Below, piece after piece: positions 5,641-59,617 of a DNA stretch of 64,000 bases (its first letter is position 1; the number at the start of each line of letters is the position of its first letter). A model generated the notes under the pieces. It made no database searches. It saw only the letters and a list, made by a program, of their open reading frames with translations, and was not told the DNA's origin. The translations under genes were made by a program, and so were the position numbers. Source of the stretch: Synechococcus sp. M16CYN (GTDB taxonomy: Bacteria > Cyanobacteriota > Cyanobacteriia > PCC-6307 > Cyanobiaceae); contig NZ_AP029048.1 in assembly GCF_040371545.1 (NCBI RefSeq), positions 248,001-312,000 on the forward strand, written 5' to 3'.

Positions 5641-5683
5641 GTTTCGGATCGAATCTCAAAGCTGGATATCCTCAGCCAAATCG

Positions 5684-6247
5684 ATGATAAGGACGATGCT
5701 TGCATGGTCAACTGGAATAAGCCTCACCTTGATGAACGCCATTATTCCCGGCCTGGCAGCTACAGATGTAGCGCTCGTAAGCGGAGGATTCCGTCGCTCA
5801 ATTCCTGTGAAGGAGATCAAGCACTTCGCTAAAACAGGTGAGGCAGCTGGGCTATTGGGCAGTATCTTAATGTTCTCCAAGCAAGATTCAAAGGAAGTTG
5901 CTAAACTGCTTAACCGAAGATTAAACGTTCCGTTGATTCTAACGAGCCGTTTGATTAACACACAAATTGGCGAAGCAATTGTTCGTCGCGTAGCACGGGT
6001 CATCTATCCGCTCTATACACCAAAAGCAGACATAGTCATCCCAGCAATCCGTGCTGGCATTATCAATGGCCTTCAAAGCGACGAAGGACTTACGGCTGTC
6101 AGCTTCCTGACAGCCTATCCCAACCAAGTGATGGCAATCAATATATCTGCGCTATTTGCTATGATCGAAACAATGGAATCCGTGGCCGGCCTAGTAAGAT
6201 CCTTTGCAGATTCTCCGCTTGATGGGTTGAAGAACAAGAACCGTTAG
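5684..6247 (+). CDS. DUF1400 (alpha/beta-hydrolase-associated) exported protein
   Basis: A 187-residue protein with an N-terminal hydrophobic stretch ending in IIPGLAA, consistent with a signal peptide. The remainder matches by memory the cyanobacterial DUF1400 domain, found alone or ahead of alpha/beta hydrolases: a beta strand with RRSIPVKEIKHFAKTGE, then a helical repeat with RLINTQIGEAIVRRV, ending NQVMAINIS. No serine-hydrolase GxSxG triad is visible, so this is the stand-alone domain without a hydrolase. It lies between the ABC1 kinase and thrC on the same strand and may be co-transcribed. Function is unknown. Confidence 0.7.
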   Translation: MIRTMLAWSTGISLTLMNAIIPGLAATDVALVSGGFRRSIPVKEIKHFAKTGEAAGLLGSILMFSKQDSKEVAKLLNRRLNVPLILTSRLINTQIGEAIVRRVARVIYPLYTPKADIVIPAIRAGIINGLQSDEGLTAVSFLTAYPNQVMAINISALFAMIETMESVAGLVRSFADSPLDGLKNKNR

Positions 6248-6299
6248 AGACATGTTGTCCAACGCCTCGTAGATTTCATACCATTCTGTCTAGACGCTG

Positions 6300-7406
6300 G
6301 TGTCCTTGCTCCAAAACCTTCGTCGGCGTTTCACGGCTAATGCTGTGATGCATAACTGGCCTGGTCTAATTGAAGCCTACAGAGGTTGGCTACCGGTCAG
6401 TGCAAAGACACCCGTCATCACTCTTCATGAAGGAGCGACACCTTTAATACCAGTTCCCTCAATCGCCGAGCGAATTGGGAAAGGCGTGCGCGTGTTTGTG
6501 AAATATGACGGTCTCAACCCCACTGGATCGTTCAAAGATCGAGGCATGACAATGGCTATTAGCAAAGCTAAGGAGGCTGGCTGTGAGGCTGTGATCTGCG
6601 CTAGTACAGGTAACACTAGCGCTGCCGCCGCTGCCTATGCCCGCCGCGGTGGGATGAGGTCTTTTGTCCTAATCCCTGATGGCTATGTTGCCCAAGGAAA
6701 GCTGGCCCAAGCCTTGATTTACGGAGCCGAAGTTCTCGCCATTCGCGGCAATTTCGATCGTGCACTCGACATTGTTCGCGAAGCGGCTGAAAAGTACCCG
6801 GTGACCTTGGTGAACTCCACTAATCCCTATCGGCTTCAAGGTCAAAAAACAGCTGCTTTTGAAATTGTGGATGCCCTTGGCTATGCTCCTGACTGGCTGT
6901 GTATTCCCATGGGCAACGCGGGAAACATTACTGCTTACTGGATGGGTTTCCAGGAATATCAACAGGGTGTTCACAATCACAAATTACCGCGAATGATGGG
7001 CTTTCAGGCCAGTGGATCAGCGCCGTTGGTTTACGACACTACCGTGGATAACCCCAATACAATCGCCACAGCAATTCGTATTGGTAATCCAGTAAATCGT
7101 GCCAAAGCTATAGACGCCCGCAACGCTAGCAACGGTGCTTTCTTCGAGGTTACTGATGCCGAGATCATCACCGCTTACCAATTTCTAAGTTGTAAAGAAG
7201 GAATCTTCTGCGAACCCGCGAGCGCGGCATCAGTAGCAGGTCTATTTAAACGAAAAGACGAAGTGCCTGCCGGCGCAACTGTGGTGTGCGTTCTCACGGG
7301 AAACGGACTAAAAGACCCTGATTGTGCCATTAATAACAACGACGCAGCTTTCCATACAAATCTCGATCCAGACCTGGACACCGTCGCAAACACGATGGGG
7401 TTTTAG
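6300..7406 (+). CDS. thrC: Threonine synthase
   Basis: PLP enzyme converting O-phosphohomoserine to threonine and phosphate, the last step of threonine synthesis. The 368-residue frame shows the PLP-lysine motif GSFKDRGM (Lys79), the phosphate-binding ASTGNTSAAAA loop, and GNAGNITAYWMG. The length fits the shorter (class II, plant/bacterial-like) cyanobacterial form. The longest start is GTG at 6300; an ATG at 6348 (MHNWPGLIEAY) is a reasonable alternative because strong similarity begins there. It is the last gene before the non-coding region leading into dnaN. Confidence 0.95.
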   Translation: MSLLQNLRRRFTANAVMHNWPGLIEAYRGWLPVSAKTPVITLHEGATPLIPVPSIAERIGKGVRVFVKYDGLNPTGSFKDRGMTMAISKAKEAGCEAVICASTGNTSAAAAAYARRGGMRSFVLIPDGYVAQGKLAQALIYGAEVLAIRGNFDRALDIVREAAEKYPVTLVNSTNPYRLQGQKTAAFEIVDALGYAPDWLCIPMGNAGNITAYWMGFQEYQQGVHNHKLPRMMGFQASGSAPLVYDTTVDNPNTIATAIRIGNPVNRAKAIDARNASNGAFFEVTDAEIITAYQFLSCKEGIFCEPASAASVAGLFKRKDEVPAGATVVCVLTGNGLKDPDCAINNNDAAFHTNLDPDLDTVANTMGF

Positions 7407-9794: not shown

Positions 9795-12149
9795 ATGGTG
9801 TTTTCCTCTGCATACGACGTTTCCACTGCACTCAAACAGGAAGGTCTGAAACCCAGCTATTGGGATGAAATTTGTCGACGACTCGGGCGTCAACCTAACC
9901 GCGTTGAATTGGGTATGTTCGGTGTGATGTGGTCAGAACATTGCTGTTATCGTAATTCGCGGCCGCTTCTCAATGGATTTCCTACAGAAGGTTCAAGGGT
10001 TTTGGTTGGCCCCGGCGAAAACGCAGGGGTTTTAGACCTTGGTGAAGGGCGTCACCTTGCTTTCAAAATCGAAAGCCACAACCACCCATCCGCAATAGAA
10101 CCATTTCAAGGTGCTGCCACTGGTGTTGGTGGCATTCTTCGCGACATCTTCACGATGGGTGCTAGGCCAATCGCATTGTTGAATGCTTTGCGTTTCGGGC
10201 CGCTTGAAGAAAGCGCAAATGTTGGTCTAATGGAAGGCGTCGTGGCCGGCATTGCCCATTACGGCAACTGTGTGGGCGTTCCTATCGTGGGTGGTGAGGT
10301 GGGTTTTGACCCCTCATATTCAAGCAATCCTCTGGTTAATGCCATGGCTTTGGGCTTGATGGAGACCGAAGAGATTGTCAAATCGGGTGCCATTGGAGTG
10401 GGCAATCCTATGGTTTATGTGGGCAGCACAACGGGTCGAGATGGCATGGGTGGTGCCAGTTTCGCCAGTTTTGGGTTAAGTACAAATTCGCTGGATGACC
10501 GACCAGCGGTTCAGGTAGGTGATCCTTTTCTGGAGAAGGGCTTGATTGAAGCCTGTCTTGAAGCCTTCGCTAACGGGGATGTATTGGCAGCGCAGGACAT
10601 GGGTGCCGCAGGTTTAACTTGCAGTTGCTCGGAGATGGCCGCCAAGGGCGGATTGGGGGTGGAGCTGGATTTAGATCGTGTCCCTGCCCGCGAATCAGGT
10701 ATGACCGCTTACGAGTTTTTGTTGTCTGAGTCTCAGGAACGAATGTTGTTTGTGGTGAAGGCTGGCAAGGAAGACGTTCTGATGGCTCGTTTTCGTCGCT
10801 GGGGTCTTCAAGCCGCGGTAGTGGGACGTGTGTTGGAAGAACCGGTAGTGCGTGTTCTTCACCATGGTGAAATTGCAGCAGAGATCCCTGCAGCAGCCCT
10901 TACTGATGACACACCGATCGAGCATCATGAGCTGCTCAAGGAGCCTCCCAGAGACCTGCAGATGCTCTGGAGCTGGACCGAAAACCAGGTTGCCCTACCC
11001 GCCGCTGTTGACCACGACTGGAATGCTGCGCTGCTCAAGCTTCTCGATAATCCCACTGTTGCCAGTAAGCGCTGGGTGTATCGCCAGTACGACCAACAAG
11101 TTCTTGCTAACACTATTCTATCTTCGGGTGACGCGGATGCTGCTGTAATTCGACTGCGTCCCCAACAGGGCAAAGGATGCTTTAATCCTACTCAAAAGGG
11201 TGTTGCCGCAACCGTAGATTGTCCTAATCGTTGGGTAGCCCTCGATCCCGAAAGGGGGGCGATTGCGGCCGTAGCTGAAGCTGCTCGCAACCTGAGCTGC
11301 GTCGGAGCCAATCCGCTCGCCATTACAAACAACCTCAATTTTTCATCTCCGGAAACTTCCGAGGGCTACTGGCAATTAGCCATGGCTTGCCGTGGAATCA
11401 CAGAAGCCTGCAGGGAGCTCGAGGTGCCAGTGACTGGTGGCAATGTTTCGCTCTACAACGAGACCCGTCAGAGCGAGAGCGGTGTGCAGCCGATTCATCC
11501 CACACCTGTGATCGGCATGGTCGGTCTTGTCGATGATATTTCCTCCGTGACTGGTTTAGGATGGCGTCGAGCTCAGGACGTTGTTTTTTTGCTCGGTGTT
11601 CCCCCAGATGATGGGAACCATGAATCTCTTGGGCTAGCCGGTAGCGCTTATCAGCAAGTTTCAACTGGTATTTCTGCAGGCCGGCCTCCAAAGCTCGACC
11701 TCAAGCTCGAAGCTAGGGTCAGCGGTTTAGTAAGAAAATCCATTGCTAGGGGCATTTTGGCATCGGCCCATGATTGCAGTGATGGTGGATTAGCTGTAAC
11801 TCTCGCTGAATCCAGTATTGCATCAGATCTAGGAGTCGATATCAATCTCAAGATTAATAATGTTCGATTAGATCGTGCACTTTTTGCTGAAGGGGGAAGT
11901 CGTATTATTGTTTCAGTTAAAGTTGAGTATCTGCGTGAATGGTATGATTTGACTAATGAACTTGTGAATGTTCCAGTTACACGAATTGGTACCGTTACAG
12001 ATTGCAAATATTTAATGATTAGATCGGACGATAATCTAATCGTTCGACTTGATATCTTATGTTTGCATAACTCTTATAATAATTCGATTTCTCGGCGAAT
12101 CGACTGTTGTTGTTCCAAATCTTCATCGGACTCTGATATTTCAGAATAG
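9795..12149 (+). CDS. purL: Phosphoribosylformylglycinamidine synthase, large subunit
   Basis: Catalyses the ATP-dependent fourth step of purine synthesis (FGAR to FGAM), using ammonia delivered by the separate PurQ/PurS subunits. About 784 residues, the small bacterial PurL form without a fused glutaminase. Visible: [19 protein letters not shown], the ATP-binding [21 protein letters not shown] near residues 92-112, GGNVSLYNE, and [16 protein letters not shown] near the C-terminus. I place the start at the ATG at 9795; a TTG nine bases earlier is in frame. The last ~250 residues are encoded by clearly more AT-rich DNA than the rest, as is purF after it. The last ~30 residues are Ser/Cys/Asp-rich and not conserved. 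Confidence 0.97.
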
Positions 12150-12288
12150 CAGTTGCCTATCTTTGATAAGGTTGGTAATTCTCGCTTATTTTGCTCATGT
12201 ATTTATTTAATTTTTACGATGCAATTGACAGATTACGCTGGTATCTATAAGCGTTTCCTGAGTTTCGTTTTTTCTTGGAGGTTTAAGT

Positions 12289-13746
12289 ATGTGTGGAATT
12301 ATTGGAATATCTTGTGTCGATTCGGTCAACCAGCAGATCTATGATGATTTACTACTGTTGCAACATCGTGGCCAGGATTCCGCGGGAATTGTGACGATGG
12401 ATAACTATACCTTTCACCTTCATAAAGCAAGAGGAAGTGTTCGAGAAGCTTTCCGTACAAGAGATATGAGAAAGCTTTTTGGTAATGTAGGGATTGGACA
12501 TGTACGTTATGCAACACGAGGCGCTGCTGCATCTGATGAAGAAGTTCAACCGTTCTATGTTAACGCTCCTTATGGAATTACATTTGTTCATAATGGGAAT
12601 TTAACTAACACTCATCAGCTAGAGCAGGATTTATTCAAAGTTGATCGGAGGCATACAAACTCTTCTAGCGACACCGAGATGCTTTTAAATGTCCTAGCAA
12701 CTGAAATTCAGTCGTGTTTAACAGGTAAGGACCTTTCCCCTGATCAGCTCTTTGATGCCGTTGGTTTATTGCATCAACGTGTCCAGGGCTCTTATGCTGC
12801 GATAGCACTTATTGCTGGTCACGGCTTGCTTGCTTTTCGAGATCCTTGTGGCATCCGTCCCTTAATTTTGGGTCAAAGGAAATCGGAAAAAGGACGTGAT
12901 GAATGGATTGTAGCAAGTGAATCTTTAGTTCTCGAAAATAGTGGTTATCAAATTGTCAGAGATGTAAATCCTGGCGAGGCAATATTTATTGATAATGATG
13001 CAAATTTATATCAGCGTCAATGTTCAAAAAATTCGAAGCTTATTCCTTGCGCTTTTGAATATGTCTATTTAGCTAGACCTGATTCTGTAATGAACGGAAT
13101 ATCTGTTTATGGATCACGTTTACGCATGGGGGATTTACTCGCAAAAACTATTATTCAATCGCTTCCAAAGGGAGATATTGATGTTGTGATGCCAATCCCT
13201 GACTCAGCCAGACCTTCTGCAATGCAGGTAGCAAAAAAACTTGGAATTGAATATCGAGAGGGTTTTTATAAAAATCGTTATGTTGGTCGAACTTTTATTA
13301 TGCCAGGTCAAGCTGAAAGAAAAAAATCTGTACGTCAAAAATTGAATGTCTTAGGAACTGAATTCCTTGGTAAAAATGTTCTTATCGTTGATGATTCTAT
13401 TGTTCGAGGTACGACATCGAAGGAAATTGTTCAAATGGCTCGTCTTGCGGGCGCCAATAAGGTAACATTTACATCTGCTGCACCGCCTGTTCGATATCCT
13501 AATGTTTACGGAATTAATATGCCTACTAGAACTGAACTGTTAGCCCACGGACGTACGGTTGATGAAATTGCCGATCTTCTCGCGGCTGATCATGTCGTTT
13601 ATCAAACAAGAGAGGATTTAAAGAAGTCAATCATTAAAGATTCTGATATCAAGGATCTTGAAATGTCGTGTTTTGACGGTAGGTATATTAGTGGTGATAT
13701 TGATGAAGATTATTTTATTTGGTTAGAAAAACACTGTAACTCTTAA
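12289..13746 (+). CDS. purF: Amidophosphoribosyltransferase
   Basis: First committed enzyme of purine synthesis: glutamine plus PRPP gives phosphoribosylamine. It is an Ntn-hydrolase; the nucleophile Cys2 follows the initiator in MCGIIGISCVD. The PRPP-binding loop VLIVDDSIVRGTTS is near residues 364-377. The 485-residue length is normal. A good ribosome site (TTGGAGG at about 12275-12281) precedes the ATG. It follows purL on the same strand with a 139-bp gap and converges on the gyrA-like gene. The coding sequence is noticeably AT-rich compared with dnaN or argH. Confidence 0.98.
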   Translation: MCGIIGISCVDSVNQQIYDDLLLLQHRGQDSAGIVTMDNYTFHLHKARGSVREAFRTRDMRKLFGNVGIGHVRYATRGAAASDEEVQPFYVNAPYGITFVHNGNLTNTHQLEQDLFKVDRRHTNSSSDTEMLLNVLATEIQSCLTGKDLSPDQLFDAVGLLHQRVQGSYAAIALIAGHGLLAFRDPCGIRPLILGQRKSEKGRDEWIVASESLVLENSGYQIVRDVNPGEAIFIDNDANLYQRQCSKNSKLIPCAFEYVYLARPDSVMNGISVYGSRLRMGDLLAKTIIQSLPKGDIDVVMPIPDSARPSAMQVAKKLGIEYREGFYKNRYVGRTFIMPGQAERKKSVRQKLNVLGTEFLGKNVLIVDDSIVRGTTSKEIVQMARLAGANKVTFTSAAPPVRYPNVYGINMPTRTELLAHGRTVDEIADLLAADHVVYQTREDLKKSIIKDSDIKDLEMSCFDGRYISGDIDEDYFIWLEKHCNS

Positions 13747-13778
13747 GGTTTGAATTATAAGCATTAGCCGGCATTATT

Positions 13779-16307
13779 TTATATCGATTCAATTGTATTT
13801 AAAAGGTTGATAATTTTTTCATTTTTATGAAGTTTTAGTTGGTCGCTAAAATAGTTTCCTGGTTTTGACTCAGTCAGCGACATAGAATTGATTCGACCGT
13901 GACGCTGCTCACTACTCACCACATTAACTAAGTTACCTGCTTCAGCAATTCCGACCACTCGATCTTTATCGTCATTCAGTAATACAGCAATTGATCCAAG
14001 ATCTCCCCGTTGAGACAGGCGCTGGGGGCTGAGAGTAATGCGACTGATCCTTCCTTCTCTACTGATTACTACAAACGTTGATTCTATTAATATCAGTGCG
14101 CCTACTAAATGTTCATCGGGTAGCAGTCGCATTGTCATTGGACCCTGTGCTAGGCGACCCATCAGTGGAAGTGTGGCTTCGTTAATTGGCAAACGTAGAG
14201 CTCGACCGATGTCGCTAATGAGTAACAGGTCCTGATGTTCATGACAGATCATTGCACTTTTCAGCTGAACACCATCTTTCAGTTTCACCACGCTGGTCGC
14301 ACGTCCAGAAAGATCCAGGACCTCCGTGAGTGGTAACCGTTTGAATCGACCATCACTGCTTAACAATCCCAGACTAAGACCACTGCTGTCTTGATTTGGC
14401 AAAGGAGTGATTGCCACCACCGAATCTCTTTCTAAACCGCTGGGAAGGAATCGTTTAAGTGCCCCCGGTTGCTGACCGGCAAATTCCCAGCGCACCAAAG
14501 CAACGCGGCCATTGGCACTGATGGCCAAGAGTCGCGGAGAAGGTTCTATAGGAAGGATAATCCGAGCCGGTGAAGGTGCGTTGCCTACCGGGCAAGGATC
14601 ACTGAGGCGAAGACGGCCGAGCACTTGCGGTGTTACGATTCTCACCTGCCCGTCTGCTTGAATCAAAAGGCGACCATCGCCGGGTAAGGCAGCCAAAGCC
14701 TGTTGCCGCAATGCTTCTGTGTTAGGACGTTGGTTGGCTGCCTGTTCTGCCATCAATGCATCACCTCCCTCAATTAGGCGAGTGCGACGTGGTGTAGTAA
14801 AGCGTTTTTGAAGCGTTCTCAGTTCCCTGACCATGGTGTCAAGTAACTGATCGCGGTTCTCGAGCAGCAGTTTGAAATGCTCTTGTTTTCCCCTGAGGCT
14901 ATTGAGCTCTTTGCGTAAGTCTTCCCGTTCTAGCCCCGTCAACCGCCGGAGCGGCATTGCCAGGACAGCATCTGCTTGACTTTCGGTCAGTTCTAAGCGA
15001 ACCATCAAATTTGCCCGAGCTGAGTTGGCATCATTGACTTCCTGAATCATTGCGACTACGGCTTGAAGGTTGTTCAGAGCCGTGATCAAACCATCAACTA
15101 TCTTTAAACGACTCTCCGTTTTGCTTAGAAAGTGGCTGGTGCGCCGAATCAGGGTGAGTTCCCTGTATTCAAGGAAAATTTGAAGAAGCTGTCTTAGTGA
15201 AAGTTGCTGAGGTTGACCATTCACAAGGGCTAGCAAGATAGCGCCGAAATTGCTTTGTAATGCCGTCCGACGCTGTAGGTCTTTCAGCACCTTGTCAGGA
15301 TCCGCATCACGACGAAGTTCCACAACAACCCGCATGCCATCACGGTCGCTTTCGTCTCGGACGTCTACGACGCCGCCGATTTTCCCACCATTGACCAACT
15401 CAGCTAGTTTTTCAATCCAACCAGCTTTGTTGAGTTGATATGGTAGTTCGGTAACAACAACAGCATTACGTTTGTGTCTTCCTTTGCCGAGTTGTATTTC
15501 TTCGGTATGGGCTACACCTCGCATAGGGATGCTGCCACGACCATAGAGATAGGTGTCCTGTAACCCTGAACTGAGTAGCACTTCTCCACCCGTTGGAAAG
15601 TCCGGGCCGGGTATCAATTGTAGAAGTTGTTCGTCGCTAAGATCAGGTTTGTGAATTAGAGCGATGAGACCTTCTACCACTTCACTCAAATTGTGTGGTG
15701 GAATGCTCGTCGCCATGCCAACGGCGATGCCCGAACAGCCATTCAACAATAAAAATGGGAGTTGTGCTGGAATTACCGTCGGCTCTTGTTGAGACCCATC
15801 GAAATTGGATATGAATTCGACAGTATTGTCGCTTATTTCCTCAAGAAGAGCGTGGTGCGCTATCGGAGTCAAGCGTGTTTCGGTGTATCGCATAGCAGCC
15901 GGTGGATCATCATCGACAGATCCGAAGTTGCCATGACCATCTAGTAAAGGATGACGGCTAGTGAAGGTTTGAACAAGTCGAACAAGGGCATCATAGACTG
16001 CCTGATCGCCGTGGGGATGGTATTTCCCCAACACGTCGCCCACCACACGGGCGCATTTCCTATACGGCCGATCAGGAGTTAGCCCCAACTCCTGCATGGC
16101 GTAAAGAATACGTCGTTGCACCGGTTTTAGACCATCGCGAGCATCGGGTAAGGCCCGACCTACGATGACGCTCATAGCGTACTCTAAGTAAGAGCGCTGC
16201 ATCTCTTGATGCAGCGCAGTCGGTTGAATGCGCTCTTCAGCCATCCTGTCCACAGATATTGGAACGGAGGCTGATCGACTCACAGATGTCACTGACGTTT
16301 TTGCCAA
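13779..16307 (-). CDS. DNA gyrase / topoisomerase IV subunit A
   Basis: Type IIA topoisomerase A subunit, the DNA-breaking half that works with GyrB/ParE. Catalytic tyrosine: Tyr141 in AAMRYTE, with the DNA-gate helix motif [16 protein letters not shown] before it. The N-terminus ([33 protein letters not shown]) is the family signature. The C-terminal beta-pinwheel domain is present but I see no QRRGGKG-type GyrA box, so supercoiling activity is uncertain. Cyanobacteria often carry two A-subunit paralogues and this one, beside purF, is named gyrA or parC in different genomes. The longest start (16307) overlaps the TPR gene end by 19 bp; ATG at 16244 (MAEERIQP) may be the real start. Confidence 0.93.
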
Positions 16308-48850: not shown

Positions 48851-49000
48851 AGAGGTCTGCTCACCTCTCTATAGAGAACTCGTAGAGAAGCAGTTTTCTC
48901 TACGGGGTAGACCCCTTGTGTCCGTAGAGAAGTCATTGAGAAATCAACAACGTAGGAAGTGACTCTTCTACGAGTCATCGTAGAGAGATCGTCCTATAAT
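48848..49000 (+). promoter_or_regulatory. Operator-rich promoter of the integrase
   Basis: Holds repeated CGTAGAGA(A/G) motifs: 48848-48854 (7 of 9), 48881-48889, inverted copy TTCTCTACG at 48896-48904, 48923-48931 and 48979-48987. The second and third form an inverted repeat with a 6-bp spacer. A palindrome TCTCTATAGAGA lies at 48866-48877. A consensus -10 TATAAT is at 48995-49000, 16 bp past the start of the last motif, so a bound protein would block it. The same motif and spacing recur at 51460 and 61967. Confidence 0.72.
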
Positions 49001-50405
49001 GGAAATACGGTCGATAAGGAACTCGTTTTTAGTGGGAAGTCGGAACAACAGAGGGAACAACCAAAAGTCCTATGGGATGTATGAGGAACTGACTCACTTG
49101 CGTGTCAGTGCGGATGCGGAGGTTCCATATGTCTACAAGCGTTTGGACACACAAACTCACCTTCCAGTCGAAGACAGGACCTATCAACTTCGTATTCCTG
49201 TTCCTGGTTCTAAGGGGGTTCGGAAGTCCCTGAAGACCTCTGATAGGACAACTGCGATCGAGAAGTCAGAAGAGGAAGTCCTCCAGTTGAGAGTTCTTCT
49301 GAGACAGGGAGGAAGTCCCAATAAGGTTTCTGTTCTGGAACTGGTGAAGAAGTTCCTTAAGACCAAGGAGGTTCGGATTCGTGGAGAGTGGGAAGGGAAA
49401 GAGGATCGTGGAGATAAGAGTATTACTCAAGGAAGATATGAACTGGTTCGTGGGAAGTTGTCCAACTATTTCATTCGTTTCTTAGGTGAGAAAACGGATG
49501 TTCGGACGATTCCTTTATCCGTATGGAACGAGTGGGAAACCTGGAGGATCAATAACAACACAAGGAAAGAACTTGGAACGCCCAGTTCTGACACGATTAA
49601 GAATGAGATGGGTATAATCCGTGAAATCTGGAAATGGGGTATTGAGAACTCATACCTTCCTAATACTCCTAAACTTCCATTCCATGATGAGAACCTGACT
49701 CCGAACGACAAGGTTCGTCGGGACTCTTGGGAACCTCACGAATGGAAGATATTTTCTCGACGTGTCCGTGAGTGGGTGAGGTCGCTCAAAGGTAGTCAGG
49801 AAGAGGTTTGGGACTCTTGGATTTCTTATCAGATGATGTTCTTTCTTGCCAACTGTGGTATGCGTCCTGGTGAAGTTTGTAAGATTCGTAGGAAGGATGT
49901 TGAGTTCTATATTCGTAATAATCAAGATCATAAGTTTAAGAACCTGTGCTGTCTTGTCCAGGTCCATAAGTCAACAAAAACTGGTTCTCGTCAGGTCAAT
50001 GCCATGGGTGGTTCTTTCCTGAAGAGAGTGTTTGATAAGTCAAAGCATAAAAAGAAGAGTGATTTCGTTTTTTGCCACCTTGATGGAACTCCTCTCACTA
50101 CATCTGAGTTCCGAAACCAGTTTTACAAAATGACCAAGTTCACGAACGAAGATGAACGACTTGGGAAACGCCTAACGCCTTACGCACTCAGACATCTCTA
50201 TTACACAATCCGCCGATACAATGGAACAACTATTGAGGGTCTGAGTAAAAATATGGGTAGTGATTACACTTATCTAAAGAAACACTATGATCATACAGAG
50301 AATCGATTGGATACGGAGAATCTCACGAGGATGAATAATGCTCTTGGTTTGGGTGGAAAGTTTATCCCTGAAGGGGAAGATTTTATGGTTCCAGAGGAGA
50401 TCTAA
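48999..50405 (+). CDS. Tyrosine recombinase (integrase)
   Basis: Phage-type integrase of up to 468 residues, the enzyme most likely responsible for insertion at guaA. Catalytic residues are visible: Arg in NCGMRPGEVCKIR, Lys in VHKSTKTGSR, the His-x-x-Arg box as YALRHLYYTI, and the tyrosine nucleophile region in LKKHYDHTENR. An N-terminal arm-binding region and a SAM-like core-binding domain (residues ~105-240) precede. The first ATG (48999) overlaps the TATAAT promoter box, so GTG at 49032 or ATG at 49077 may be the true start. It ends tail-to-tail with the 320-residue gene, overlapping by 4 bp. Confidence 0.93.
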   Translation: MEIRSIRNSFLVGSRNNRGNNQKSYGMYEELTHLRVSADAEVPYVYKRLDTQTHLPVEDRTYQLRIPVPGSKGVRKSLKTSDRTTAIEKSEEEVLQLRVLLRQGGSPNKVSVLELVKKFLKTKEVRIRGEWEGKEDRGDKSITQGRYELVRGKLSNYFIRFLGEKTDVRTIPLSVWNEWETWRINNNTRKELGTPSSDTIKNEMGIIREIWKWGIENSYLPNTPKLPFHDENLTPNDKVRRDSWEPHEWKIFSRRVREWVRSLKGSQEEVWDSWISYQMMFFLANCGMRPGEVCKIRRKDVEFYIRNNQDHKFKNLCCLVQVHKSTKTGSRQVNAMGGSFLKRVFDKSKHKKKSDFVFCHLDGTPLTTSEFRNQFYKMTKFTNEDERLGKRLTPYALRHLYYTIRRYNGTTIEGLSKNMGSDYTYLKKHYDHTENRLDTENLTRMNNALGLGGKFIPEGEDFMVPEEI

Positions 50406-51364
50406 AGGGGTGGATTGATTCCACTATTTTTGATCATCAAATTATACCAAATAGACAACTCTTTTCGATCGCCTAAAACTTGTTCCAACCTTCGTTTGAG
50501 GTTGTGTCTGGTTCCTGCGTCTTCGGTGTGACCCATCAGGAAGCAGACCTTTGCGACGTAGGTCTGACCGTGTTTCTCCCAGAACTTCTCCCGTCCTCCA
50601 TCGACGTGGATCAGGAACCCCGTGAACTGACGGAGAGGTGTGTCTCTCACCTCGTCCACGTTCTTCAGGTCGAACTTCTTCTTGATGTCCTCAGGAACCT
50701 CCAGGAACCACTTCGGGGTCAGTTCCTTCTCCAGGACTCCTCTCCAGAAGACCGAGTAGTCACTCCACTCCCTCTGACGGATGGTGAGAGATCCCTCTGT
50801 GGTCGTCTTCTGGAGGAGCAACCCGTATTCCTTACAAACCCTCCTGAGGTCTTCCTCAAGCGTCTTCAGGGTCTCTCCTTCCAGAGGAACGTCGTCAGGT
50901 CGCAGGACGTTCCACATCACCTCGTGTTTTGACCCCCAACGTCCCTTCTCACCGTCTGGGGTGGTCAGGTGGGGTGATTTGACCTGACGGACGTATTGGG
51001 TGACTCCCTTAACGGTGGTGGAGGGGGTGACGTTCTTGGTTCGGACTGAGTTGAGGAGTTCCTCTGGTTTCAGGGAACACAGGATGTGGATTGTCGAATA
51101 GGAGGAGGGGAGACCTTTGATCAGTTCCTGACGGTGTTTCGTGGAGAGTCCTGAGAGGGTTTTTCCAATGACCCTCAACTTGGAGAAGATCTTGTCCTGG
51201 ATTCCCGATTCCTCCTTGTAGACCTGGTAGGTCGATGGATCCAGTCGTTCCTTCAGGTCAAACAGACCACAGGAGAGGTTCACGATCTGTTCTGTGGAAC
51301 CCGTGTATGGGTTCTCCACCACGAAACGTCGGAACGTCTGGAGTGAGTCGTCCTTCTTCTTCAC
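50402..51364 (-). CDS. Unidentified element protein, possible DNA-binding regulator
   Basis: 320 residues, not recognised with certainty. Residues ~80-115 (KGLPSSYSTIHILCSLKPEELL ... VTPSTTVKGV) resemble the LPxSxxTIYxL...LTxxxV helical motif I recall in ParB-like/DUF3102-type plasmid and phage proteins, which suggests DNA binding. The rest is charged and helical; a C-terminal stretch reads HNLKRRLEQVLGDRKELSIWYNLM. The coding strand is very purine-rich, like the two recombinase genes. It is divergent from the small acidic genes, sharing the CGTAGAGA promoter region. A role as the regulator that reads this motif is a guess. Confidence 0.6.
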   Translation of the reverse strand: MKKKDDSLQTFRRFVVENPYTGSTEQIVNLSCGLFDLKERLDPSTYQVYKEESGIQDKIFSKLRVIGKTLSGLSTKHRQELIKGLPSSYSTIHILCSLKPEELLNSVRTKNVTPSTTVKGVTQYVRQVKSPHLTTPDGEKGRWGSKHEVMWNVLRPDDVPLEGETLKTLEEDLRRVCKEYGLLLQKTTTEGSLTIRQREWSDYSVFWRGVLEKELTPKWFLEVPEDIKKKFDLKNVDEVRDTPLRQFTGFLIHVDGGREKFWEKHGQTYVAKVCFLMGHTEDAGTRHNLKRRLEQVLGDRKELSIWYNLMIKNSGINPPL

Positions 51365-51490
51365 CCCTGACCATCGTCGTCAGGGTCACTCTACTAATGG
51401 TCGTAGAGATTTCATAGAGGAAAAGTCGCACCGAAGAAGTGTCTCTTTCTACGGGACAACGTAGAGAAATCGTTTATTATATGGAAGTGG
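51365..51490. promoter_or_regulatory. Divergent promoter with CGTAGAGA operators
   Basis: Between the 320-residue gene (minus) and the acidic-protein genes (plus). Motif copies: CGTAGAGAT at 51402-51410, CTTTCTACG near 51445-51453 (reverse orientation, partial) and CGTAGAGAA at 51460-51468 continuing ATCGT to 51472, then a -10-like TATTAT at 51475-51480. The block CGTAGAGA-ATCGT plus a TATA-type box and GG is nearly the same as in front of the integrase. Confidence 0.68.
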
Positions 51491-51522: not shown

Positions 51523-51565
51523 AGTCGATAAACCGACTCAAAACCCTATCGGTGAGAGAACACCG
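51523..51565 (+). ncRNA. Two-hairpin RNA leader, copy 1
   Basis: AGTCGATAAACCGACT (51523-51538) folds as AGTCG/CGACT with a six-base loop. AAAACCCTAT follows, then a second hairpin CGGTG-AGAGAA-CACCG (51550-51565). It sits in the 5' leader of the 105-residue acidic gene. A second copy lies at 51928-51968 ahead of the next gene, where the base of hairpin 2 changes from C-G to T-A, preserving pairing. It is probably a cis-acting RNA or protein-binding site; no known riboswitch was recognised. Confidence 0.6.
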
Positions 51566-51600
51566 AGAAAAAACAAATCCCATATTCTTTTTCCAAACAA

Positions 51601-51918
51601 ATGGATTATCCGACTGCGACTTTTGTTCGTAATATGGTTCTGACTGATTTGATTAGTCAGCATCAAGAAAAACTTGACTACTCGATTGTGAGTAGTGTTG
51701 TCTGGAGTGAAAGCGAAGCACCCAAAGAGGGCACGAAAGAAGGAAACGATTTAATCAATCATATCGTTAAAAAGTTTGGTATTGATCTCGACGATTTCAT
51801 TTACACACAGATCTCGATTTTCGACCACTCTTTTGAGAACGACCCCGAATGGTTTGACGAAGAGGATACTGACGAAAAAGATCGTATCCGAGACAAAGTT
51901 CTCGAACTGATTGGTTGA
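51601..51918 (+). CDS. Small very acidic protein 1
   Basis: 105 residues, about 25 Asp/Glu against 10 Lys/Arg (net near -15), with an acidic C-terminus (FENDPEWFDEEDTDEKDRIRD). No family recognised. No clear Shine-Dalgarno stands before its ATG, which fits control by the leader hairpins. Acidic proteins of this size include DNA mimics (anti-restriction, anti-CRISPR), but that is only a suggestion from composition. First gene after the divergent promoter; the second acidic gene follows with the same leader. Confidence 0.7.
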   Translation: MDYPTATFVRNMVLTDLISQHQEKLDYSIVSSVVWSESEAPKEGTKEGNDLINHIVKKFGIDLDDFIYTQISIFDHSFENDPEWFDEEDTDEKDRIRDKVLELIG

Positions 51919-51927
51919 TTAATCAAT

Positions 51928-51968
51928 AGTCGATAAACCGACTTAAAACCCTATTGGTAAAAACACCA
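51928..51968 (+). ncRNA. Two-hairpin RNA leader, copy 2
   Basis: Repeats the copy-1 leader: the 16-base AGTCGATAAACCGACT hairpin is identical (51928-51943), AAAACCCTAT is identical, and hairpin 2 is TGGT-AAAAAC-ACCA (51955-51968). The compensatory C-G to T-A change in the stem supports pairing. It lies 9 bp past the stop of the first acidic gene and 40 bp before the second. Confidence 0.6.
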
Positions 51969-52007: not shown

Positions 52008-52331
52008 ATGTCTAACGTCTTCCAAGAAACTATTTCCGAACTCACCAATGCTTTGGAGATTGCTAAGAATCTTTCCGATGAGCAAGTAAAGAACTTGTAT
52101 GGACTCTCAGACAAATATCAAACTAAGTGTAATGGAGACGATGTGTCCCCTTCTGATTTTGATGATTACCTTTCTGAATCAATCGGTTTTAGCAACTACA
52201 CCATTGCGACTCTTGTTCTTGATGGTGAATGTGGAAACCTGAAGGAAAGTATTTGTTCAGATGTTTGTGAAACAAACGAAGAAGAGAATCAAGTAGAAGA
52301 ACTTGTTGATCGTATCTTCGCCTGGGTTTAG
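52008..52331 (+). CDS. Small very acidic protein 2
   Basis: 107 residues with about 23 Asp/Glu against 6 Lys/Arg (net near -17). No family recognised; sequence similarity to the first acidic protein is not obvious, yet the leaders are copies. Contains four cysteines, three of them clustered (GECGNLKESICSDVCE), which could bind metal. GGAG at about 10 bp before the ATG is a fair ribosome site. Possible DNA-mimic or metal-binding regulator; not established. Confidence 0.68.
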   Translation: MSNVFQETISELTNALEIAKNLSDEQVKNLYGLSDKYQTKCNGDDVSPSDFDDYLSESIGFSNYTIATLVLDGECGNLKESICSDVCETNEEENQVEELVDRIFAWV

Positions 52332-53279: not shown

Positions 53280-53543
53280 ATGAAACCAGCACAGGTGAAC
53301 CGCAGGATTCAGAACTTCCTGCGGGACCTTGCTGACGAAGGAACATTCCGTATGCGAAAAAAGACAGGACACCCTGTCTGTGTTGCTTCTTATGGGGGTG
53401 AGCAGAGGTCTTTCTCTCTCTGCTGGACCCCTGGTCAGAACTACCAGAAGTATGCGGTCTGGAACCTGAATCAGTTTGTGCGGACACTCCCTTTGGACGA
53501 TCCGCCGAGGTTCTCACTACATAAGTTCTTCGAGGACTTCTGA
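53280..53543 (+). CDS. Unidentified small basic protein
   Basis: 87 residues, basic at the start (VNRRIQNFLRDLADEGTFRMRKKTGHPVCV) and rich in aromatic residues. No family recognised. It follows the 273-residue gene by three bases. Ends 67 bp before the convergent zinc-protein gene. Confidence 0.62.
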   Translation: MKPAQVNRRIQNFLRDLADEGTFRMRKKTGHPVCVASYGGEQRSFSLCWTPGQNYQKYAVWNLNQFVRTLPLDDPPRFSLHKFFEDF

Positions 53544-53610
53544 CCCTCGTTAAACCCTGGTTCTGGGGACCAGGAGACAGAAAGTAATAACTCCCCTTTT
53601 ATTCACTTAC

Positions 53611-53964
53611 TCAGTTGCTCGACTCCTGAGCAAGAAACTGCTTAGCAACCTCCTTCTCACGGATATATTTCCTGTAGAGAGGGGGGTTCCATTGTTTTAG
53701 GAAGGTCGAAAACTTCATTGTGTAGGAACACCTTTGATTTCCCTTCCCACCATTCAGACCACGATTACATGAAAAGAAGTAAGAGAAGGATTGAGGGACT
53801 GGGTAGATGACAGCACACTTCTCATTGCTTTTGGAATCGTTCTTTTGTGCGTCTCTACAGAATGGACAAGCAACCTTATATCCAGTCCCGTCTCTAAACT
53901 GGTGCTTCTGATATGGAGACAATGATCGAATAACTGCTTGGAGATATTGGTCTTGTAATGACAT
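53611..53964 (-). CDS. Primase-like zinc-ribbon protein
   Basis: 117 residues with CPFC near residue 33 and CNRGLNGGKGNQRC near residue 66, a CxxC ... C-x(12)-C zinc-ribbon layout. The order KVACPFCRDAQKNDSKS ... CSYTMKFSTFLKQWNPPLYRKYI resembles the N-terminal zinc module of T4-like cyanophage primases (gp61-type: CPxC, then xCxxCG, then FxxFLKxxDxxLYxxY). No catalytic primase domain follows, so it is a stand-alone module or a truncated copy. It may act in element replication or interfere with a phage primase; inference. Confidence 0.55.
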   Translation of the reverse strand: MSLQDQYLQAVIRSLSPYQKHQFRDGTGYKVACPFCRDAQKNDSKSNEKCAVIYPVPQSFSYFFSCNRGLNGGKGNQRCSYTMKFSTFLKQWNPPLYRKYIREKEVAKQFLAQESSN

Positions 53965-55864: not shown

Positions 55865-58800
55865 TTAGACGATCGTGAAGTCACTCGCACCTAATTCAGG
55901 TGCTCCTATGAGTTTTGCGAAAAAACCGCCATCGCCCCAACCTTTACTTGCGCCATTTTCATTGAAGTAAAGATTCCCATTCTTTTCGTTGTATATAAAA
56001 TCTACCGATGTTTTTGCGACTTGTTTCGCTGACTTTTTGTTCTCAACCGCCTCAAAGTCGAATGCAGAACTTACTCCATAGACGTCTCCATCGATAAGAA
56101 TTGAGTCGCCCTCCGTAGGGTCGAAATCAACGATATTATCTTTTTTACTTTTTCCAAAATCATCGCGCTTGTGGAACAAGAAACCATCTCCTCCACCCTT
56201 CCCTTCCAGTTGATCTTTATTCAAGCATCCAACAAGTATTTCTGCATCTTGTGTACCTGTGATGATGTCCTTTTTAGACGTCCCGAGAATGATATTTGAA
56301 ACAACCTGATTTCTTATTATAACTGCTTCTCTCAGTTCGTAGTTTGATATCTCATCCACCATGGGGAGATTATTGATGGATTGAACACCAGGGTTGATAG
56401 GACCAGGACCAGGACCAGGGTCTATTGGTATTGGTGCAGGATTAGCACCCCCTGGAGGACCAGGATCAGGATCAGGTTCTATTGGTGCACCCCCTGGAGG
56501 ACCAGGAGCAGGACCAGGGTCTCCTGGTGCAGGATTACCACTCTCTGGAGGGTCAATGGGTTCAGGGTCAATGGATTCAGAGTTAATGGGAGTTGGGTCC
56601 TGAGGTGGAAGGCATGCGCATGGTTCTGGTAATGGTCGTAGATAAAGTTTTATTTTCTTTCTATATCTGCCCCCATCAAGATCAATTGTGCGGATCCGAA
56701 TTCTATAAATCGTGGTGCTGTCTTCTGAGGTAGGTACTTCTCGTATCATCAAATTCTCGCCGTCGATCTTAAATTTGTGATTGTCTCTATCACCCCTTCC
56801 TTTGACTAACTTATATCTATGACGGTCAGCATGGTCCTGGTCTTGACTTGATAGTGCTGCAACTGTACGGACTGAACTAAAAGTTCCGGAATCCAATCCG
56901 TAATATGATGTAGCATTATCTATATCTACATAATGGTCATTGAATGTATCGCCGGAAGAAAGATATAAATCTGTTGGCGCATCATTGATGTCATTCACAC
57001 TCAAGTTGAATGACTTCTCGAAGGTCAGTCCACTTGAGTCTGTGGTTTGCAGTCGGACTGAGTAAGAAGACTTGGTTTCAAAGTCTGGTGACTCAATGAT
57101 CTTTAGTTTATCGTTCTCAATGGTGAAAGAAGCATTATCGGTATCTCCAGTTCCAGTGACCAGTGCGTAGGTATGGTTGTCTCCTGAATCTGGGTCTGAG
57201 GTGCTCAGGGTTACTACTGCAGAACCACTTGCGATGTTTTCGTCAAAGGATGATGCTGATATTGAGATATCCGTGGGTGACTTATTAAAGGCAAACCTAC
57301 TAATAAATGCATCAGCACTTCCACTATTTGTTTGCCCATCCAAATCCCCACTGGTAGAACCCGTGATGTAGATGGATTCATCATCAGAAATGCTGATAAA
57401 TTCTGCTTCGTCAGAATCTGACGTTCCTAGTAATTGTGTCCACTGCCTAGATCCGTCACTATTGTATTTACTAATAAATGCATCCGTATTTCCACTATTT
57501 GTTTGCCCATCTAAATCTCCACTGGTATAACCCGTGATATAGATGGATTCATCATCAGAAATGCTAATGGAGGATGCATAGTCATAATCTGATGTTCCAA
57601 GTAATTGTGTCCACTGCCTAGATCCATCACTATTGTACTTACTGATAAATGCATCAGCACTTCCACTATTTGTTTGCCCATCTAGATCCCCATAGGTATA
57701 ACCCGTGATGTAGATGGATTCATCATCAGAAATGCTAATGGAGGATGCATAGTCATAATCTGATGTTCCTAGTAAATGTGTCCACTGCCTAGATCCATCA
57801 CTATTGTACTTACTGATAAATGCATCAGCACTTCCACTATTTGTTTGCCCATCTAGATCCCCATAGGTATAACCCGTGATATAGATGGATCCATCGTCAG
57901 AAATGCTAATGGAAAATGCGCAATCGTGACTTGATGTTCCAAGTAATTGTGTCCACTGCCTAGATCCATCACTATTGTACTTACTGATAAATGCATCCGT
58001 ATTTCCACTATTTGTTTGCCCATCCAAATCTCCAGGGGTAGAACCTGTGATGTAGATGGATCCATCGTCAGAAGTGCTGATGGAAAATGCGTAATCGTGA
58101 CTTGATGTTCCTAGTAATTGTGTCCACTGCCTAGATCCATCACTATTGTACTTACTGATAAATGCATCAGCACTTCCACTATTTGTTTGCCCATCCAAAT
58201 CTCCAGGGGTAGAACCCGTGATGTAGATGGATCCATCGTCAGAAGTGCTGATGGAAAATGCGTAATCGTGACTTGATGTTCCAAGTAATTGTGTCCACTG
58301 CCTAGATCCGTCACTATTGTACTTACTGATAAATGCATCAGCACTTCCACTATTTGTTTGCCCATCTAGATCCCCCTTGGTAGAACCCGTGATGTAGATG
58401 GATCCATCATCAGAAGTGCTGATGGAAAATGCATAGTCATCATCTGATGTTCCTAGTAATTGTGTCCACTTTCTGTGTGGAATTGCTAATTGACTGGAAG
58501 GAGAATCTTCTAAGTCATTCACATTAAAAGTAAATGATTTTTCAAAGGTTAGACCACCAGAGTCTGTGGTTTGTAGTCGTATTGAGTAGGAAGAGTTGGT
58601 TTCAAAGTCTGGTGATTCATTAATGTGGAGTTGATCACCATCAATTGTGAATGCGCTGTTATCGGTGTCTCCAGTCCCAGTGACCAGTGAATAGGCATGG
58701 TTATCACCTGCATCTGAGTCTGTCGTGCTCAGGGTCGCGACTGCAGATCCACCTGCGATGTTCTCGTAAAAGGATGATGCTGATATTGAGATATCCGTGG

Positions 58801-59617
58801 GTGTAAAAGTTACTTTTGAGGGATCCTCATCCAGATCAATGACAGTCAAGTTGAATGACTTCTCAAAGGTCTGACCAGCAGAGTCCTTGGTTTGCAATCG
58901 AATTGAGTAGGACGACTTAGTTTCAAAATCTGGATAGTGATTTATAATTAATTCTGCAGGGATTGTGTTCGCATCGCCGGAATCTCCGGGAATGCCTCCG
59001 AATATATCTGTAGGGGCGCCCCAAAAACCATCTATTTCTGGGATATCGACTTCTGAAGGATTGTTGATGGAAAAAAGATGGTTGTCTACGCTGCCAGGAC
59101 CTTCTACTAGTTGATATGTATGCTTGTCATCCTTGTCCGCGTCGACTGTCGACAACAGTGCCACGATTGACAATGAATTTATGTTCTCATTAAAGGATAG
59201 AGAAGATAAGGTGATGTCAGTTGGTTCGCTGCTGCTCTCCTCGTATTCATATGTATACGGGTTTGACAAGTCGGTTTGCGAAACAGTTAATACCCCTCTT
59301 GAATCAAGTACTTCCGTGTTGCCTGCTTCGTCTGTGTATTCAGCAATTACGTACCAGTCATTCCACCCTACTGTGTTTTCCTTCCAGAGATTGAATGATA
59401 CTGCAATTCTTGCTCCATCTCGCCATTGCGTAACGCTCTTCTCGTAATTAATTGAGTCGTTCTTGAAAGCATAGGTTACGGGTTGATATATACTTATTCC
59501 GTCTTGATCTTGGATGCCGGGGGATATTATCGGAACATCTTCTCCAGGGAATTCGGTGGAAATCTTGTAATAAAGGTTATATCCGTCAAAAAGACCGAGA
59601 GTATTTAATGCGGACAC
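55865..59617 (-). CDS. Giant cadherin/beta-propeller adhesin, type I secretion candidate
   Basis: 1,250 residues. Order: N-terminal domain (~1-130); cadherin-like domains at ~131-260 and ~275-370 (PTDISISASSFYENI ... FTIDGDQLHINESPDFE); seven 57-residue SBBP-type repeats (~384-780, WTQLLGTSSHDYAFSISTSD ... ), enough for one seven-bladed propeller; cadherin-like domains at ~785-880 and ~882-990; a Pro/Gly/Asp-rich linker (~1000-1075, PDPGPPGG units); and a C-terminal domain with IITGTQDAEILVG ... GGDGFLFHKRDDFG ... GDSILIDG that resembles the calcium-binding, C-terminally secreted end of RTX-type proteins. No signal peptide, which fits type I secretion; no transporter genes are in the window. 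GTG start at 59617 with AGGAGG 8 bp before. Likely a surface protein for attachment or cell interaction. Confidence 0.9.
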   Translation of the reverse strand: MSALNTLGLFDGYNLYYKISTEFPGEDVPIISPGIQDQDGISIYQPVTYAFKNDSINYEKSVTQWRDGARIAVSFNLWKENTVGWNDWYVIAEYTDEAGNTEVLDSRGVLTVSQTDLSNPYTYEYEESSSEPTDITLSSLSFNENINSLSIVALLSTVDADKDDKHTYQLVEGPGSVDNHLFSINNPSEVDIPEIDGFWGAPTDIFGGIPGDSGDANTIPAELIINHYPDFETKSSYSIRLQTKDSAGQTFEKSFNLTVIDLDEDPSKVTFTPTDISISASSFYENIAGGSAVATLSTTDSDAGDNHAYSLVTGTGDTDNSAFTIDGDQLHINESPDFETNSSYSIRLQTTDSGGLTFEKSFTFNVNDLEDSPSSQLAIPHRKWTQLLGTSDDDYAFSISTSDDGSIYITGSTKGDLDGQTNSGSADAFISKYNSDGSRQWTQLLGTSSHDYAFSISTSDDGSIYITGSTPGDLDGQTNSGSADAFISKYNSDGSRQWTQLLGTSSHDYAFSISTSDDGSIYITGSTPGDLDGQTNSGNTDAFISKYNSDGSRQWTQLLGTSSHDCAFSISISDDGSIYITGYTYGDLDGQTNSGSADAFISKYNSDGSRQWTHLLGTSDYDYASSISISDDESIYITGYTYGDLDGQTNSGSADAFISKYNSDGSRQWTQLLGTSDYDYASSISISDDESIYITGYTSGDLDGQTNSGNTDAFISKYNSDGSRQWTQLLGTSDSDEAEFISISDDESIYITGSTSGDLDGQTNSGSADAFISRFAFNKSPTDISISASSFDENIASGSAVVTLSTSDPDSGDNHTYALVTGTGDTDNASFTIENDKLKIIESPDFETKSSYSVRLQTTDSSGLTFEKSFNLSVNDINDAPTDLYLSSGDTFNDHYVDIDNATSYYGLDSGTFSSVRTVAALSSQDQDHADRHRYKLVKGRGDRDNHKFKIDGENLMIREVPTSEDSTTIYRIRIRTIDLDGGRYRKKIKLYLRPLPEPCACLPPQDPTPINSESIDPEPIDPPESGNPAPGDPGPAPGPPGGAPIEPDPDPGPPGGANPAPIPIDPGPGPGPINPGVQSINNLPMVDEISNYELREAVIIRNQVVSNIILGTSKKDIITGTQDAEILVGCLNKDQLEGKGGGDGFLFHKRDDFGKSKKDNIVDFDPTEGDSILIDGDVYGVSSAFDFEAVENKKSAKQVAKTSVDFIYNEKNGNLYFNENGASKGWGDGGFFAKLIGAPELGASDFTIV
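57290..58468 (-). repeat. Seven tandem 171-bp repeats (SBBP propeller blades)
   Basis: Seven near-identical 57-codon units in the adhesin gene. Internal units differ in only a few codons (GSTPGDL, GYTYGDL, GYTSGDL, NTDAF/SADAF), so recombination or conversion among them is recent or frequent. Seven is the number expected for a closed propeller. Confidence 0.92.

Follow-up and report, generated by a model that had tools for sequence, protein, structure and literature searches.

Two adjacent genes for small acidic proteins in Synechococcus sp. M16CYN are preceded by the same short leader sequence, which raises the questions of whether this repeated leader is a structured RNA, how widely it occurs and what it does for the genes behind it. 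The stretch analyzed, referred to below as the window, comprises 64,000 nt of contig NZ_AP029048.1 (positions 248,001 to 312,000 of the forward strand), and all window positions are counted from its first letter. A preliminary description, made from the letters alone, had reported two leaders of 41–43 nt with an identical AGTCG/CGACT hairpin, an identical linker and a second hairpin whose closing pair changes from C-G to T-A. From this change it had inferred a structured RNA of a class that was not recognized.

Type A leaders of the window

The leaders were found at exactly the positions reported, and all of their described features were present in both copies. Copy 1 (51523-51565, + strand) reads AGTCG-ATAAAC-CGACT / CAAAACCCTAT / CGGT-GAGAGAAC-ACCG. 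It consists of hairpin P1 (51523..51538, AGTCG-ATAAAC-CGACT), the conserved unpaired linker CAAAACCCTAT (51539..51549) and hairpin P2 (51550..51565, CGGT-GAGAGAAC-ACCG), in which a fifth and a sixth pair, inside and outside, are possible. Copy 2 (51928-51968, + strand) reads AGTCG-ATAAAC-CGACT / TAAAACCCTAT / TGGT-AAAAAC-ACCA, with P1 at 51928..51943, the linker TAAAACCCTAT at 51944..51954 and P2 at 51955..51968 (TGGT-AAAAAC-ACCA). The closing pair of P2 is thus C-G in copy 1 and T-A in copy 2. This plan of a P1 hairpin, a AAAACCCTAT linker and a P2 hairpin within 41–43 nt is referred to as type A. Copy 1 precedes the gene for a 105-aa acidic protein (51601..51918, + strand), whose start is 35 nt past P2 and whose product has only a weak match to DUF5513, below the cut-off. 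Copy 2 begins 9 nt past the stop codon of this gene and precedes the gene for a 107-aa acidic protein (52008..52331, + strand), which starts 39 nt past P2. The folding z scores relative to dinucleotide shuffles were -3.9 for copy 1 and -3.5 for copy 2, and no shuffle was equally stable. When the whole genome of 1.96 Mb was searched with the covariance models described below, type A was found only at 51523 and 51928, and the sister class, type B, only at 53531.

Homologs of type A and covariation of their stems

A pattern search of 59 relatives identified type A copies in two genomes of the same genus. Covariance model R1, built from three type A copies, was then run over 34 genomes of the genus and 400 of the family. 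It identified 17 type A copies in 12 genomes, which are the two of the window and 15 in 11 other picocyanobacterial genomes. The covariance search proposed in the preliminary description therefore did yield further copies in related elements. The genome of the window (G000) contained two copies, G016 and G148 three each, and G013, G087, G197, G261, G292, G312, G317, G350 and G366 one each. A pattern scan of GTDB contigs placed Synechococcus sp. AG-670-A05, AG-670-B23 and AG-686-F08 among the carriers. One window copy was used in the training of R1, so that its own score is high by construction, and the copies outside the training set (those of G197, G148, G366, G312, G261 and G087 and others) scored 33–54 bits.

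The refined type A model, R2, was applied to 390 class-level and 399 family-level genomes. True copies scored at least 49 bits, except for that of G292 with 33 bits, versus at most 26 bits for the background. Outside the family, no R2 match above background was found in the 390 class genomes. R1 and R2 matches below about 27 bits, such as those of G027, G022 and most of the class level, were taken as background, with the exception of G277 and G297, which were also detected by the type B model R3. Given that E-values of the models built in this study are rough, we relied on bit scores, covariation and permutation. The genomes are samples of the family, and metagenomes were outside the scope of the search.

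In the alignment of the 17 type A copies, 98.5% of the pair cells held standard pairs and 5 of the 9 pairs had double-sided changes. The cells of P1 were 100% paired, and its double changes were UA/AU and GC/AU at pairs 3 and 5. Those of P2 were CG/UA, GC/CG and UA/AU. When the partner was slid by 1–3 columns as a control, 18–36% of the cells were paired and 0–1 double changes remained. The alignment was fitted to the structure and is biased in that direction; nevertheless, the stems are readable by eye. A double change between two copies is weak evidence alone, and it is the set of 17 homologous copies that settles the conservation of pairing inferred in the preliminary description. Broken stems in the homologs would have refuted that inference; instead, the stems are maintained by compensatory changes. 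One type A homolog, L075 (G292), had no recognizable P2.

The (N)(A/T)AAACCCTA linker was nearly invariant across the 17 copies. The stems differed while fold and linker were kept, often between two copies in one element, as in the window, G016 and G148. For instance, G016 carries AGTCG..CGACT with CGCA..TGCG in one copy versus AGACG..CGTCT with CGGT..ACCG in another. Thus, it is the structure and the linker rather than the letters of the stems that are conserved. Wobble pairs were few, and the G-U pairs lay on the sense strand, as expected for an RNA of that strand.

Two further pairings were considered and rejected. An extra upstream hairpin, P0 (TCGCCA..TGGCGA in G261, G317, G350, G016 and G087), was not assigned to the core, since its covariation was modest, rested on 6 sequences and did not clearly beat the controls. 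P0, in the form TCGCCA-ct-GCA..TGC-tc-TGGCGA, lies 5' of the type A leaders in L071, L072, L073, L074 and L077 and is preceded by an AT-rich conserved block (AAAATAAAATAC), which could be a -10 region. By inspection, a switch that pairs the 3' arm of P1 with the 5' arm of P2 was possible in some copies and not in others.

Database, viral and literature searches

No family of Rfam 15 matched the leaders, either at the gathering threshold or at permissive E-values up to 5–10, in agreement with the class having gone unrecognized. The cyanophage link to which the preliminary description had pointed was not borne out. Exact-pattern scans of IMG/VR returned 11 and 5 matches, which on inspection did not have the leader plan and are thus attributed to chance, and three further patterns returned 0 matches; BLAST of phage records likewise revealed no cyanophage link. 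The viral collections were scanned by exact patterns only. One scan of GTDB contigs also returned non-cyanobacterial matches (Bacteroidales, Clostridiales and others), at about the number expected by chance and without a matching P2. Such leaders were not described in the open-access literature, although this search was limited to open-access articles and is no proof. Structured leader RNAs as a general kind are already known; what appears to be new is the family, its occurrence in picocyanobacterial islands as multiple, mostly intercistronic copies and the pseudoknot of type B. As far as sequence comparison can establish, the 43-base leader repeated in the window is genuinely a folded RNA, and its family is outside Rfam.

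Type B leaders and their predicted pseudoknot

The island of AG-686-F08 (L041, identical to L069) contains further leaders of the same plan before other genes. In these leaders, termed type B, P1 is TGACG-ACCTCAGAC-CGTCA with a loop of 9 nt, and it is followed by the linker NTAAACCC, as in type A, and by P2. R3, a covariance model of the type B P1 and linker, was used together with a pattern search and identified about 25 copies in 16 family genomes, the weakest of which are uncertain. G026, G366 and G119 contained 4 copies each. In L125 of G119, at least 4 near-identical type B leaders lie within 2 kb (12013-13870), each before a different small gene, and the genes downstream of this array include two homologs of the 105-aa protein of the window.

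The window itself has a type B copy 1.6 kb downstream of the type A leaders. The preliminary description had missed this sister class, as well as the location of most leaders between cistrons and the integrative elements that carry them, both described below. P1 of this copy (53531..53549, + strand, CGAGG-ACTTCTGAC-CCTCG) overlaps the stop codon of an 87-aa gene and scored 41.8 bits with R3, in the construction of which this copy was used. The linker TTAAAC, P2 (53556-53574) and the pseudoknot strand follow at 53550..53582 (+ strand). The strand, CAGAA at 53578-53582, is complementary to, and could pair with, TTCTG at 53538-53542 in the loop of P1.

Covariation of the type B P1 was as strong as that of type A, with 98.8% of cells paired and double changes in 3 of 5 pairs. 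Moreover, the loop was complementary to a strand 3' of P2 with letters that differed between copies: CGCAA/TTGCG, ACCTG/CAGGT, TCCTG/CAGGA, ATCCCG/CGGGAT, AACTCAG/CTGAGTT, ACCAG/CTGGT and TTCTG/CAGAA. When the loops were permuted among the downstream sequences, the observed pairing sum was reached in 0 of 20000 trials, and with one representative for each of the 13 distinct loops the median z was 5.1. These results support a predicted pseudoknot between the P1 loop of type B and the strand 3' of P2. The pseudoknot was poor in some type B copies (L069 5375, L117 15143), and no equivalent was visible in type A.

Both types occur in one element in the window and in L069. Homologs of the 105-aa protein follow a type A leader in the window and in G148 and a type B leader in G119, and R2 and R3 match identical places in G277 and G297. 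Given these homologous genes with either type and these shared matches, types A and B look equivalent or interchangeable, at least by their sequences.

The variation of the stems and the pseudoknot also bear on whether the repeats act as RNA at all. With their similar size, the dyads P1 and P2 might be palindromic DNA operators of a dimeric repressor such as AlpA, the more so as alpA is the gene immediately 5' of leaders in L066, L068, L070, L076 and L135. However, copies within a single element have different half-sites, and conservation is higher in the loops and the linker than in the stems. The presence of G-U pairs also speaks against operators, and the pseudoknot of type B would be meaningless in duplex DNA. 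The fixed distances from stop and start codons described below likewise fit an mRNA. Largely refuted by the covariation, operators are barely tenable as an explanation.

Placement of the leaders relative to genes

For the majority of the 17 type A leaders, a likely start codon is 32–43 nt 3' of P2, and in 5 copies the upstream stop codon is 8–9 nt before P1. L069 has a TTG at 34 nt and no ATG, L074 a GTG at 33 nt or a later ATG and L075 an ATG at 16 nt, while no ORF of at least 35 aa was found behind the leader of L078. The type B leaders are mostly likewise just 5' of coding sequences, with the upstream stop codon 5 nt before P1 in 6 copies, except that the window copy at 53531 has no ORF behind it. 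Where the context was readable, the leaders are mostly 5–9 nt past an upstream stop codon. These distances were derived from automatic ORF calls. In the window, copy 1 lies behind a divergent gene and is therefore not intercistronic but the first in its operon; the promoter-like site upstream of it is no more than expected by chance. The proteins encoded downstream are small, often acidic and mostly unrelated to each other.

Several conventional roles were not supported. An intrinsic terminator is ruled out, since no T-run follows P1 or P2 on the sense strand. Neither a conserved anti-Shine-Dalgarno sequence nor an alternative fold was detected. There is likewise no support for base pairing between the linker and 16S rRNA or an antisense partner, as the complement of the linker is absent from 16S rRNA and not clearly enriched in the elements.

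We consider it fairly probable (about 0.6) that the leaders, carried by integrative elements of marine picocyanobacteria (the family of Synechococcus and Prochlorococcus), are a new, cis-acting and mostly intercistronic family with one common partner, which acts after transcription, on translation or on the mRNA. The fold is established by covariation, and several copies stand before unrelated genes in one island with a defined stop/start geometry where this is readable; the function is inferred. That the leaders act in cis with a common partner follows from the repeated structure before unrelated genes, the constant distance to the start codon and the finding that loop and linker are best kept while the stems covary. 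The leader probably controls translation of the downstream gene, although mechanism, ligand and protein partner are inferred and RNA-seq, probing and reporter data are lacking. The RNA would fold into a 5-bp P1, an unpaired (N)UAAACCC(UA) linker and P2, locked in type B by the P1-loop pseudoknot, and would lie in the mRNA just upstream of the ribosome landing site. There it could determine how the downstream gene is translated, or how its mRNA is processed. Numerous small accessory genes within one island might then answer jointly to one host, helper or element-encoded factor that recognizes the loop, the linker or the pseudoknot. No such trans factor was identified, and no ligand is suggested, since the downstream genes are unrelated and of unknown function. 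It can be proposed only tentatively that the leaders are a new class of small pseudoknotted RNA switches or self-processing RNAs that picocyanobacterial satellites place before each accessory gene, and that one signal, such as helper-phage infection, switches the whole island on.

The intercistronic site a few nucleotides past a stop codon, repeated along operons, could also indicate an element of mRNA processing or stability. P1 and P2 would then mark an intercistronic cleavage point or cap a processed 5' end, so that each gene of a polycistronic mRNA receives its own protected 5' end; the extreme form would be a self-cleaving ribozyme. The compact pseudoknotted fold of type B and the invariant unpaired linker agree with this idea. 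It remains doubtful, however, because no ribozyme or other family of Rfam matched even at permissive E-values, there are no cleavage data and copy 1 of the window is the first in its operon.

Another possibility is that the leaders act on RNA polymerase as elements of transcription antitermination or attenuation, like nut sites or the put RNAs of HK022, which are two-stem-loop leaders present in two copies in a mobile genome (PMC9378689). Islands need long operons. However, put RNAs occupy the start of early operons and exert their effect over a long range, whereas the leaders of this study precede individual genes within operons, with a fixed spacing to the start codon, and no T-run terminator is right behind them on the sense strand. 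Antitermination is thus unlikely.

The integrative elements that carry the leaders

The tyrosine integrase gene of the element in the window (48999..50405, + strand) adjoins the 3' end of guaA (48730); a direct repeat that would define the opposite end of the element was not detected. Repeats of TCTACG...CGTAGAGA at 48881-48905, 48967-48986, 51390-51409 and 51448-51467 flank the pair formed by the integrase gene and the gene next to it and are possible integrase arm sites or terminators. This next gene (50402..51364, - strand), divergent from the leader operon, encodes a 320-aa protein of unknown family that is predicted to be all-helical and had no match in Pfam, PHROGs, PDB sequences or PDB folds. 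Its homologs in L118, L069, L117 and L129 are near leader-bearing genes and mostly divergent from these. The 320-aa protein is a candidate island regulator. As a universal partner of the leaders it was rejected, since it is absent from the examined stretches of several leader-bearing elements.

The leaders are surrounded by tyrosine integrases, AlpA regulators, small acidic genes and, in 2 elements, a DUF5906-type (helicase-like) protein. Given these neighbors, the carriers are integrative elements with a satellite-like content, although mobilization by helper phages is not established. The integrases found are phage-type. tblastn revealed no phage relatives of two island proteins, and a PADLOC scan of five island proteins from the window gave no match. 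The AG-670-A05 contig with two type A leaders (L077) also encodes a C5 DNA methyltransferase (5504-6838, - strand; PADLOC type II / DruM matches). Just beyond the island genes of the window is the gene for a 1250-aa repeat protein (55865-59617, - strand) that combines proline-rich stretches with several repeats of cadherin-like and SBBP-like type; these names rest on the appearance of its sequence only.

The same type B leader follows homologs of the 87-aa gene in L129-L131. A comparison of 53531-53640 of the window with 1501-1610 of L129 revealed a close match to 53610, after which the window switches to a convergent gene. The break suggests an exchange of genes in which the leader was retained. 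A match that ends exactly behind the leader, together with near-identical leaders before unrelated genes across genera, is also what would be expected of integron-like recombination junctions of exchangeable gene cassettes, whose hairpins would be folded single-stranded sites. However, a mere junction would not need the constrained distance to the start codon or the placement in mRNA, no integron integrase was found among the genes scanned, and the break is accounted for by homologous recombination within a leader that both sequences have in common. Cassette junctions are thus very unlikely.

Significance and comparison with known systems

Few phototrophs are as abundant as marine Synechococcus and Prochlorococcus, and little is known of the way in which their integrative islands are silenced or activated. 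A leader RNA before unrelated island genes marks the members of a regulon, and its covariance model can be used to find such islands. The partner of the leader, whether protein or ligand, can be fished out with an RNA of 45–80 nt.

The targets of T4 RegA and the operators of phage coat proteins are hairpin regulons that are read by one RNA-binding protein. Similar to these, one small RNA structure is found here before several unrelated genes of one mobile genome, which suggests a common trans factor. Different from these, no such protein has been identified for the leaders of this study, and their structure is larger and, in type B, pseudoknotted.

The Downstream-peptide motif (glutamine-II riboswitch, RF01704) is a marine cyanobacterial RNA in the 5' UTRs of many short ORFs of unknown families (PMC2864571). 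The leaders described here are also cyanobacterial and marine and also precede short ORFs of unknown family, but they have no Rfam match, are on integrative elements, are often intercistronic and have their own linker, UAAACCC. The manA and wcaG motifs, known from marine metagenomes and from T4-like cyanophages, are candidate cis-regulatory RNAs (PMC2864571). They too are structured leaders and are associated with the mobile genomes of marine cyanobacteria, but are found in cyanophages before metabolic genes, whereas the leaders of this study precede small unknown island genes and have neither an Rfam match nor a specific match in the phage collections scanned. Finally, the put RNAs of HK022, which are about 70 nt long, are at the start of early operons and act on RNA polymerase (PMC9378689), resemble the leaders in having two stem-loops, two copies per mobile genome and action in cis. 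Different from put RNAs, however, the leaders of this study are about 42 nt long, mostly intercistronic and before single genes, and those of type B have a pseudoknot.
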